From assembly GCF_037860835.1 (NCBI RefSeq), contig NZ_JBBEOG010000001.1, positions 496,001 to 560,000 of the forward strand: DNA of 64,000 bases. Reading direction: 5' to 3'. The stretch is from Aquipuribacter nitratireducens (lineage in GTDB: Bacteria > Actinomycetota > Actinomycetes > Actinomycetales > JBBAYJ01). Position 1 is the first letter of the stretch. Every line of letters begins with the position of its first letter. Both the position numbers and the translations under genes were made by a program. The notes under the pieces were generated by a model that saw only the letters and a list, made by a program, of their open reading frames with translations, did not search any database and was not told the origin of the DNA. Shown here piece after piece: positions 49,384 through 52,899 of the stretch.

Positions 49384-49875
49384 TCACGGGGGGTCGTGGC
49401 GCAGCAGCACGCCCTCACCGCCGGTGAAGGCGATCCCGACCATGCGGCTCGCGCGCAGCACCTCGGTGAAGCCGAGCGCCGCGTGCAGGGCGAGGGACAT
49501 CTCGTCGCGCGCGTTCACGACCGACCACACCGGCTCGCCCGCGGGCCGCATCGCGAGGACGTCGGCGACGAGCCGGCGGGCGACGCCCCGGCGGCGGTGC
49601 GCGACCGCGACGACGAGCCCCGTCACGTACCACCCCGACGGTGACGGGTCGTCGGGCAGGTCGTCCGGTGACGGCGCGCGGACACCGGCACGGGCGTAGC
49701 CGACGATCGTCCCGGGGGGCTCCTCGGCGACGAGGACGAGCTCGCCGGCCATGAGCGCCTCCCGCAGCCGCTCCTCCCAGCCGCCCGTGCCGTGGTGCTC
49801 GCGGGCGAGCGCGGCGAGGGCCGCGACGTCGTCCGGGGCGGCGCGGCGGACGCGGGCTGCGGCTGGGCCGGACAC
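49384..49875 (-). CDS. GNAT family N-acetyltransferase
   Basis: 163-residue single-domain acetyltransferase of unknown acceptor. The acetyl-CoA loop is AHRRRGVARRLVADVL after the strand YVTGLVVAV; ARDEMSLALHAALGFTEV is the typical C-terminal half. The GTG at 49875 has TACGGT exactly six bases upstream (complement of 49882-49887), a leaderless start, which decides between several possible starts. Confidence 0.8.
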   Translation of the reverse strand: MSGPAAARVRRAAPDDVAALAALAREHHGTGGWEERLREALMAGELVLVAEEPPGTIVGYARAGVRAPSPDDLPDDPSPSGWYVTGLVVAVAHRRRGVARRLVADVLAMRPAGEPVWSVVNARDEMSLALHAALGFTEVLRASRMVGIAFTGGEGVLLRHDPP

Positions 49876-49958
49876 GTGCCGACCGTACGCCCCGGACGCC
49901 CCCACCGGATGGTCGGGAACCCCTAGGCAGGGGAGGCCGCCGAGGTCTAGCGTCAGCC

Positions 49959-50015
49959 ATGCGGGTAACCGCACGTCAGCCACCACGTCACTGCAGACGA
50001 AAGGCCAGCCCATGA
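49959..50015 (+). CDS. Possible 18-residue leader peptide upstream of the M36 protease
   Basis: A mini-ORF (MRVTARQPPRHCRRKASP) beginning at an ATG five bases after a TAGCGT -10-like box (49948-49953), so it would be translated from a leaderless mRNA. It is basic, contains a single cysteine, and uses many codons that are rare in this window (GTA, GCA, CGT, CCA, AGA, CGA). Its stop overlaps the next mini-ORF as ATGA. It could be a regulatory upstream ORF rather than a functional peptide; cysteine-containing leader peptides are known in actinobacteria. It may also be chance. Confidence 0.35.
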   Translation: MRVTARQPPRHCRRKASP

Positions 50016-50053
50016 CGCCCCCTGCCCACTCGCTCGCACCGGACCTGCCGTGA
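50012..50053 (+). CDS. Possible 13-residue ORF linking to the M36 protease
   Basis: MTPPAHSLAPDLP, starting at an ATG with a GAAAGG ribosome-site match seven bases upstream and ending in a TGA that overlaps the protease GTG (GTGA). Because the protease GTG has no ribosome site of its own, this ORF could supply coupled translation. Alternatively the ATG could be the true protease start if one or two bases were miscalled in between. Confidence 0.35.
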   Translation: MTPPAHSLAPDLP

Positions 50054-52899
50054 GGGCCCGCCGCACCGCGCTCGTCACCGCACCGGTCGTCCTCGGTGCC
50101 CTGCTCGCCGCCCCGCTGCCGGGTCAGGCCGCTCCCGCTGCGGAGGCGGCGCCCCGGCCCGGCTTCCTCACCGCGCCGAGCGACGCGGACGCGACCGACA
50201 TCGCGGTCGACTTCGTCCAGCAGAACGCCGCCGGCTACGGCGTGCTGTCCGCCGACGTCGCCGACCTCGTCGTGCGCTCGGCCTACGAGAGCCGCCACAG
50301 CGGCGTCACGCACGTCAACCTCTACCAGCGCCACGACGGGCTCGAGGTCTTCGGGGGCACCGCGACGGTCAACGTCGCGCGCGACGGCAGCATCGTCCAC
50401 GCGGCCAGCACCCTCGTCCGCGACCTGTCCGGGGCGGAGGCCGCCGAGGCCACGGGGCCCGTCGAGGCCGTCGAGGCCGTCGCCGAGGAGCTCCACCTCG
50501 ACGAGCCGGAGGACCTGCGGCCGACCGTCACGGCACGGACCGCCTCGCCCGGCGAGGTGACCCTCACCGACGGCGGCATCTCCGCCGAGCCCATCCCGAC
50601 GAGGCTCGGCTGGCAGCCGACCGCCTCGGGCCTGCGCCCGGCGTACCAGGTCGTCATCGACGACGCGGAGAGCCCCGACCTGTGGAACGCCGTCGTCGAC
50701 GCCGAGACCGGGGAGCTCCTCGACCTCGACAACTGGACGATCGAGCACACGCACGATCAGCTCGCCTCGACCCTCGCCCGCGGCGCCGCGACCGCCACCA
50801 CGCAGGCGGCGGCCCACGACCACGCCGCCGACGACGCGCACGACCACGCCGGTGAGGCCGACCTCGGGCCCTCGACGCACGCCCCCGAGGAGCGCGTCGA
50901 GGACGGCTCGAGCTACCGGGTGTACGAGATCCCGAAGGAGAGCCCGAACGACGGTCCGCGCACGGTGGTGGAGAACCCCGCCGACGCCGACGCCTCGCCG
51001 TTCGGCTGGCACGACACCGACGGCGTCGCCGGCCCCGAGTTCACGATCACGCGCGGCAACAACGTCCACGCGTACCTCGACCGCGACAACAACAACGCCC
51101 CCGACCCCGGGGGTGACGTCGACGGCGGGCCCTCGCTCGACTTCGACTTCGAGCTCGACCTCGCCGACGACCCGACCGACTACCAGCCGGCCGCGGTGAC
51201 GAACCTCTTCTACCTCAACAACGTCATCCACGACGTCATGCACGGGTACGGCTTCGACGAGGTCTCCGGCAACTTCCAGGTCAACAACTACGGCCGCGGC
51301 GGCACCGGCGGCGACGTCGTCCGCGCCGAGGCGCAGGACGGCGGCGGCACCAACAACGCGAACTTCTCCACGCCCGCCGCCGACGGCAGCCCGCCGCGCA
51401 TGCAGATGTACCTGTGGAACCCCGGTGGCGGCGTCCTGCCGTTCCAGGTCGTCGTCGACGCGCCGTCGCCGGCCGCCGGCACCTACGGCGCCAGCGGTGC
51501 GGGGTACGGCCCCGAGCCGACCGTCGAGGGCCTGAGCGGCACCTTCGCGCTCGCCGAGGACGGCTCCGGCACCAACGAGGGGTGCTCGCCGTTCGTCGGG
51601 TTCCCGGCCGGGGCCATCGCCGTCGTCGACCGCGGCACGTGTCCGTTCGTCACGAAGACCGCCAACGCGGACGCCGCAGGCGCCAGCGCGGTCGTCGTCG
51701 TCAACAACGCGCCCGGCGCCCCGATCTCCCTCGGCGGCTCCCTCGCCACCGACATCCCGTCGGTCATGGTGCGCCAGGAGGACGGCCAGGCCCTCAAGGC
51801 CGGCCTGCCCGCAACGGGCACCGTCCGGGCCGACGCGAACATCCCGCCGCGCCGTGACGGCGACCTCGAGAACGGGATCGTCATCCACGAGTACGGCCAC
51901 GGGATCTCCAACCGGCTCACCGGCGGGCTCAACGTCAACTGCCTGTCCGGCAACGAGCAGATGGGCGAGGGCTGGAGCGACTACTACGCCATCGTCATGC
52001 TCATGGACCCGGCGGTCGACGACCCGGAGGCCGCGCGGGGCATGGGGCCGTACGCGCTGTACCAGGACGACCGGTCCGGTGCGGGCATCCGTCCGGCGCC
52101 GTACTCCCGCGACATGACGAAGCAGCCGTTCACCTACGACCGGATCAGGACCGGTGGCTGGGTCGGCGGCACCTCCCTCGCCGTCCCGCACGGCATCGGC
52201 CACACGTGGGCCGCGACGCTGTGGGACATGACGTGGGACCTCGTCGACCGCCACGGGTTCAACGACAACGTCTACGACGACTGGGACGCGGGCGGCAACA
52301 ACCGGTCCCTGCAGTACGTGACGGACGGACTCAAGATGCAGGGCTGCGCGCCCGGCTTCGTCGCCGGCCGCGACGGCATCCTCGCCGCGGAGCGGGCGCT
52401 GACGGGCGGGGAGGACCAGTGCCTCATCTGGAACGCCTTCGCCCGGCGCGGCCTCGGCTACAGCGCGGTCCAGGGCACGACCAACCGCGACGACAACACC
52501 GAGGCCTTCGACGTCCCGCCGACGTGCGAGGCGACGGGTGCGGGTGTGGTGTCGCCGAAGGCCGGGGCCGACGGTCTCGTCACCCGCGACGCGGGCTCGG
52601 CGATCCCCGTCGACTTCTCCCTCGGCGCTGACCGGGGCCTCGACGTGCTGAAGCCGGCGCACTCCCCGGCCAGCCGCGAGGTGTCGTGCGAGACCGGTGA
52701 GGTCGTCCAGTACGCCCTCACGACGCCGGCGGACGCCCCGGGCGAGACCGTGCTCCGCTACAACAGGGCACGGGACCGCTACAGCCTCATCTGGGAGACC
52801 GACGAGGCGTGGGCCGGGACGTGCCGGGAGCTCGTGATCGTGCTGGAGGACGGCACGCAGCACACCATGCAGGTGCGACTCACGGAGCCGACCGACTGA
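50050..52899 (+). CDS. Secreted M36 family (fungalysin) zinc metalloprotease
   Basis: 949 residues. A Sec signal peptide (RARRTALVTAPVVLGALLAAPLPGQA) is followed by an FTP-type propeptide to about residue 245 and a His/Asp-rich linker near 255-275. The catalytic M36 domain has the zinc motif HEYGH at residues 613-617 and the downstream GEGWSDYYA, which supplies the third ligand. A protease-associated (PA) domain is inserted at about 475-590 (AIAVVDRGTCPFVTKTANADAAGA). Expected to be exported, self-activated and to degrade external protein. The GTG at 50050 overlaps a 13-codon ORF and has no ribosome site of its own. Confidence 0.92.
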   Translation: MRARRTALVTAPVVLGALLAAPLPGQAAPAAEAAPRPGFLTAPSDADATDIAVDFVQQNAAGYGVLSADVADLVVRSAYESRHSGVTHVNLYQRHDGLEVFGGTATVNVARDGSIVHAASTLVRDLSGAEAAEATGPVEAVEAVAEELHLDEPEDLRPTVTARTASPGEVTLTDGGISAEPIPTRLGWQPTASGLRPAYQVVIDDAESPDLWNAVVDAETGELLDLDNWTIEHTHDQLASTLARGAATATTQAAAHDHAADDAHDHAGEADLGPSTHAPEERVEDGSSYRVYEIPKESPNDGPRTVVENPADADASPFGWHDTDGVAGPEFTITRGNNVHAYLDRDNNNAPDPGGDVDGGPSLDFDFELDLADDPTDYQPAAVTNLFYLNNVIHDVMHGYGFDEVSGNFQVNNYGRGGTGGDVVRAEAQDGGGTNNANFSTPAADGSPPRMQMYLWNPGGGVLPFQVVVDAPSPAAGTYGASGAGYGPEPTVEGLSGTFALAEDGSGTNEGCSPFVGFPAGAIAVVDRGTCPFVTKTANADAAGASAVVVVNNAPGAPISLGGSLATDIPSVMVRQEDGQALKAGLPATGTVRADANIPPRRDGDLENGIVIHEYGHGISNRLTGGLNVNCLSGNEQMGEGWSDYYAIVMLMDPAVDDPEAARGMGPYALYQDDRSGAGIRPAPYSRDMTKQPFTYDRIRTGGWVGGTSLAVPHGIGHTWAATLWDMTWDLVDRHGFNDNVYDDWDAGGNNRSLQYVTDGLKMQGCAPGFVAGRDGILAAERALTGGEDQCLIWNAFARRGLGYSAVQGTTNRDDNTEAFDVPPTCEATGAGVVSPKAGADGLVTRDAGSAIPVDFSLGADRGLDVLKPAHSPASREVSCETGEVVQYALTTPADAPGETVLRYNRARDRYSLIWETDEAWAGTCRELVIVLEDGTQHTMQVRLTEPTD

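Follow-up and report, generated by a model that had tools for sequence, protein, structure and literature searches.

A 13-codon leader ORF overlapping the start codon of an M36 protease gene in Aquipuribacter nitratireducens and its probable translational coupling

In the 64,000-nucleotide stretch of the Aquipuribacter nitratireducens genome analysed here (hereafter the window; contig NZ_JBBEOG010000001.1, positions 496,001 to 560,000), the gene of an M36 metalloprotease is preceded by a 13-codon leader ORF (ORF2) whose stop codon overlaps the protease start codon. The length of ORF2, its ribosome site and the overlap are common to the window and a congener, the two genomes compared, but the encoded peptide is not. 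The arrangement is rather likely to consist of a promoter, a short leader and a Shine-Dalgarno-led ORF2 from which translation would pass into the protease gene by termination-reinitiation, and ORF2 with its overlap is probably a coupled leader ORF of an already known sort. A further short frame upstream (ORF1), together with the starvation-sensing relay that had been built on it in a preliminary description, is most likely a matter of chance.

Organization of the locus

The genome of A. nitratireducens has a G+C content of 75%. The intergenic region lies between two divergent genes, one on the minus strand for a GNAT acetyltransferase (49387-49875) and the protease gene on the plus strand (50050-52899), and contains a TAGCGT box, ORF1, a GAAAGG motif and ORF2. 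The protease (949 aa) is putatively secreted and belongs to the M36 (fungalysin-type) metalloproteases according to Pfam, with a Peptidase_M36 domain (PF02128; E 6.2e-135) and an FTP propeptide motif (PF07504; E 1.1e-11), in addition to a PA domain (PF02225; E 1.1e-16). Read by eye from GTG 50050, its N terminus resembles a signal peptide, hence the predicted secretion. This GTG is the sole ATG, GTG or TTG codon in the protease frame between the preceding stop codon and approximately codon 30.

On the plus strand, a candidate -10 element (TAGCGT, 49948-49953; TANNNT type) aligns with a TAGTGT of the congener (genome G002), and a candidate -35 element (TAGGCA, 49924-49929) located 18 nt before it matches TTGACA at 4/6 positions, as does TGGTCA at 18 nt in G002. 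A stricter consensus scan of 49700-50300 found no promoter, and none was expected; the promoter call therefore rests on the -10 and -35 elements common to the congener. The most likely transcription start, judged from its distance of 7 nt to the -10 element, is the G at 49961; a G stands at this spacing in both genomes, and a purine is preferred at transcription starts in M. tuberculosis (PMC4633059, in part). The one Rfam match, to a miRNA family, scored 23.6 bits where the gathering score is 70, so that no family passed its threshold, and the leader does not fold more strongly than its shuffled versions (z 0.88; 168/200 shuffles fold as well or better).

ORF1 (18 codons, 49959-50015, with ATG 49959 and TGA 50013-50015) holds one Cys codon, is probably not translated and ends on the ORF2 start in an ATGA overlap. 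ORF2 (50012-50053, with ATG 50012 and TGA 50051-50053) is preceded by the Shine-Dalgarno site GAAAGG (49999-50004; 6-base match, spacer 7) and ends on the protease start in a GTGA overlap (50050-50053). The box, both ORFs, the two overlaps and the ribosome site of ORF2 are thus all present as the preliminary description had them; its statement that the protease lacks a ribosome site is nearly right, the GTG of the window having a 3-base GGA and that of the congener a GGAG.

By eye, the GNAT gene looks leaderless (49875-49887, minus strand), with TACGGT 6 nt before its GTG and TACCGT at 7 nt in the congener. In addition, a 17-bp block, CACCGGATG[G/T]TCGGGAA (49903-49919), is kept between the divergent promoters in both species, where the leader is 55% identical, and may serve locally as an operator or as part of a promoter. 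Exact copies number one in the own genome, one in G002 and none in G001, another genome of the same genus. A role as a regulon operator was rejected, as the counts with at most two mismatches (7, 8 and 4) are similar to those of a reversed-pattern control (5, 10 and 6).

Conservation in the genus

The genus sample comprises three genomes (G000, which is the own genome, G001 and G002), two of which encode the protease, the G002 protein being 84% identical to that of the window. The leader of G002 has the order TAGTGT, an ATG 3 nt further on that opens a 9-codon frame, AAGG, a 13-codon ORF, GTGA and protease. Although the two leaders agree at just 52 of 94 aligned columns (55%), the ORF2 counterpart has 13 codons, an AAGG site with a spacer of 12 and the same GTGA overlap, so that in both genomes the TGA of a small ORF with an initiation signal of its own overlaps a downstream RTG. 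The peptides share 3/13 residues (22/42 bases, ungapped), and the counterpart contains one Cys. ORF1 and the 9-codon frame agree neither in sequence nor in length, Cys or ATGA overlap; the ATGA of the window exists because the second codon of ORF2 is ACG, which is CCC in G002. Within the genus, the comparison with relatives that had been recommended therefore upholds ORF2 in length, site and overlap but not in peptide, and does not uphold ORF1.

A miscalled base concealing an in-frame junction of ORF2 and the protease, against which the preliminary description had advised resequencing, is unlikely, because ORF2 and the protease stand in the same frame relation, out of frame, in the separate assembly of G002.

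No M36 protease turned up in G001, although this assembly is listed as 99% complete. Close orthologs are mostly from Micromonosporaceae, so that the gene may readily be lost or transferred.

Orthologs beyond the genus

In a sample of 396 order-level genomes, the best match besides the own genome and G002 had an E value of 9.9e-26, and in the class sample none of the 393 further genomes matched at E <=1e-60. Starts were compared in 16 actinobacterial orthologs with 52-56% identity, namely 15 Micromonosporaceae loci and Ornithinimicrobium cerasi, taken from 78 loci after leaving out one that begins inside the gene (L030) and 61 non-actinobacterial loci, and in a second set of nine more distant M36 relatives from the same order. 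The GTGA linkage is present in 2/2 gene-bearing genomes of the genus and in 0/16 of these orthologs, none of which has an overlapping mini-ORF. A ribosome site of at least 4 bases precedes 25/25 outgroup starts, a partly circular result as starts were picked partly for having one; in the 15 Micromonosporaceae orthologs read, such a site and a GTG start precede the basic/hydrophobic part by about 12 codons. In the second set, two of the nine M36 genes have an overlapping mini-ORF, both GTG-started: a 13-codon frame in L162 (genome G358), with AGGAGG 12 nt away and ending on the ATGA of the M36 gene, and a 33-codon frame in L165, a locus from the same genus as L162 in which the 13-codon frame of the latter is not kept. 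The reading of ORF2 as a chance frame stays alive because similar frames occur elsewhere in the order, even though they are absent from the closest outgroups.

Comparison of ORF2 with chance

A sample of orthologous starts was obtained from 306 and 240 coding-like ORFs of the two genomes, which gave 156 reciprocal pairs, 141 of them at >=70% identity and 135 with a start in both genomes; the score used to pick the starts favours -10 boxes and ribosome sites, and some picks are apparently in error, having overlapping frames of 0-4 codons. A stop/start overlap of 4 nt or 1 nt in both genomes is common (42/135). Mini-ORFs of 5-60 codons that have a site of at least 4 bases and end on the start were found at 7/135 starts in one genome, 9/135 in the other and 4/135 in both, and in the three of these four cases other than the protease the upstream frame lies within a longer one, open over 191-635 codons and probably a neighbouring gene. 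The protease alone (1/135) has, in each of the two genomes, an ATG-started mini-ORF with such a site that stops on the start codon.

Random leaders of the same composition contain such a mini-ORF in 1.1% of runs, and simulated drift of the window leader retains one in 1.6-3.1% of runs at 55% identity, 2.4-4.6% at 60% and 4-10% at 70%. Together, random leaders and drift simulation give modest support to ORF2 being more than chance. Furthermore, the ORF2 start is easily opened, at 10.5 kcal/mol in the window and 7.8 kcal/mol in the congener (114 and 131 of 135 starts need at least as much), whereas the GTG of the protease takes 14.0 kcal/mol in the window, an average value (80/135 need at least as much), and is hard to open in the congener (20.8 kcal/mol; 16/135). 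ORF2 has 2 rare codons out of 12; as few are found in 48% of non-coding stretches and as many in 6.6% of coding ones, so that codon usage is indecisive for ORF2. Two other candidate signs were discarded, namely GC3 as a coding sign for ORF2 (0.83 and 0.92), which is indecisive, and AGG at protease codon 2 as a trace of selection for the overlap, which is uninformative as 2/4 aligned AGG codons are kept.

ORF1 as a chance frame

The distance between -10 boxes and start codons was assessed on all TANNNT-then-ATG/GTG pairs, independently of the score-picked starts. At 6, 7 and 8 nt there are 36, 23 and 13 pairs in the own genome (387 kb), against 3.7 per spacing elsewhere, and 22, 18 and 8 pairs in G002 (274 kb), against 2.3 per spacing elsewhere. 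The 5-nt spacing is not significantly enriched, with 6 pairs against 3.7 expected in the own genome (P 0.17) and 4 against 2.3 in the congener (P 0.20; both genomes jointly P 0.08), and accounts for about 4% of the whole excess. The ATG of ORF1 lies 5 nt after the -10 element and that of the G002 frame 3 nt; TAGCGT, previously read as a leaderless-type box, is thus off the usual leaderless spacing of 6-8 nt. Likewise, a transcription start downstream of 49960, previously named as a finding that would refute the relay, is predicted by the distance from the -10 element, at about 49961, and could plausibly cut off the ATG of ORF1; transcription from 49959, with a leaderless ORF1, is improbable.

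Rare codons are indeed many in ORF1, as previously described, 9/17 sense codons after the start making up less than 10% of their synonymous sets. This load is reached by 12% of 20,702 (overlapping) non-coding stretches against 0.04% of 2,584 coding ones; it matches non-coding stretches and therefore marks non-coding DNA. As regards the features of a leaderless attenuator, the start codon probably does not coincide with the transcription start, judging from the spacings of 5 nt and, in the congener, 3 nt; in place of a conserved cluster of Cys codons there is one Cys in ORF1 and none in the congener frame; and the downstream gene encodes an M36 protease and not a protein of sulphur metabolism. 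ORF1 is most likely an accidental frame within an untranslated leader. Since M. tuberculosis translates many unselected short ORFs (PMC9094748, in part), even a translated ORF1 would not have to be functional.

Proposed mechanism and alternative explanations

In the preferred explanation, one promoter would drive transcription from about 49961, inside or just past the ATG of ORF1, so that ORF1 would not normally be translated. Ribosomes would be loaded at GAAAGG, translate the 13 codons of ORF2, halt at the TGA within GTGA and restart at GTG 50050, which on its own would offer a weak ribosome site. ORF2 would act by its position rather than by its peptide and set the translation of the protease, no particular amino acid being sensed. 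Counting against coupling are a comparison limited to two genomes, the general frequency of start overlaps, a leader that folds no better than its shuffled versions, the 4-10% retention in the drift simulation at 70% identity, a congener GTG with its own GGAG site and a window GTG that is not unusually structured; ORF2 may be dispensable in the congener, since the GTG there has that site. Of the relay previously proposed, the link from ORF2 to the protease through GTGA, common to the congener, fits termination-reinitiation, and the link from ORF1 to ORF2 is not supported.

An ordinary leader, in which both ORFs are accidental frames of a G+C-rich genome and the protease is initiated at GTG from a weak site, is possible but somewhat unlikely. 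It fits the frequency of start overlaps, a composition that keeps frames open, the GGAG before the congener GTG, the unconserved ORF2 peptide and the two distant M36 genes whose overlapping mini-ORFs, with sites of at least 4 bases, occur despite a start site of the gene's own; it does not readily account for an ATG, a site and an exact overlap kept at 55% leader identity, for the single such case among 135 starts, or for the 3-base match at the window GTG. Sensing of codon starvation or of Cys supply through a leaderless ORF1 that feeds ORF2 and then the protease is highly improbable: the window does contain ORF1 with its Cys and rare codons as well as the ATGA, a small share of the enriched TANNNT-RTG pairs has the spacing of ORF1, and in mycobacteria cysteine-rich uORFs with leaderless starts have been put forward as attenuators (PMC4633059, in part), but otherwise nothing was found in favour of this claim, against which stand the spacing in both genomes, a codon usage as expected of non-coding DNA and a congener without the ORF1 sequence, Cys or ATGA.

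The ATG of ORF2 could also be the ancestral protease start, severed by a frameshift in the n-region of the signal peptide, with restart at GTGA now taking its place and perhaps some -1 frameshifting besides. The strongest site here does stand before ORF2, in another frame, the Micromonosporaceae starts have the basic/hydrophobic part about 12 codons after them, and in uPPE2-PPE2 restart predominates, a frameshifted fusion being the minor product (PMC11260477, in part). This origin is nevertheless unlikely in view of the lack of a slippery heptamer at the junction (by eye), n-regions that differ in length and sequence (17 against 12 residues, by eye) and the lack of an intermediate among the sampled genomes. 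Equally unlikely is a split start that has been retained to give two N termini, one belonging to the prevailing preprotein restarted at GTGA and the other, extended by 13 residues, to some product of -1 frameshifting; if true, the ratio of the two N termini would tune protease secretion.

Relation to known systems and significance

The following comparisons draw on parts of the cited papers. RTGA-coupled small ORFs are over-represented in mycobacteria (23/220 against 32/1000), sometimes with conserved linkage and a non-conserved peptide (PMC4633059). ORF2 resembles them as a short unannotated ORF whose TGA overlaps the next RTG and whose linkage outlasts its peptide, but the ORFs counted there have leaderless starts, whereas ORF2 is Shine-Dalgarno-led and belongs to another genus with another downstream gene. 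In uPPE2-PPE2 of M. tuberculosis (PMC11260477), for which restart was demonstrated with reporters, a uORF with a Shine-Dalgarno site and AUG likewise overlaps by 4 nt a downstream gene without a site; that uORF is controlled by a B12 riboswitch, unlike the present leader as far as Rfam matching of its sequence can tell. ORF1 recalls the cysteine-rich leaderless uORFs (PMC4633059) in being a short upstream ORF with a Cys codon beside a -10-like box, but differs in its single unconserved Cys, its wrong -10 spacing and the protease downstream. Overlapping stop and start codons are also found in termination-reinitiation gene pairs (PMC6728339), which are pairs of genes, while the upstream partner here is a 13-codon leader ORF.

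The spacing counts provide a simple check for leaderless mini-ORFs in the genus, namely that the start codon should follow the -10 box at 6-8 nt. A real coupling would make the locus a possible example of a gene with a moved start codon, and would add to the cases of RTGA coupling one that is Shine-Dalgarno-led and independent of the peptide, from an actinobacterium of high G+C content and upstream of a secreted protease.
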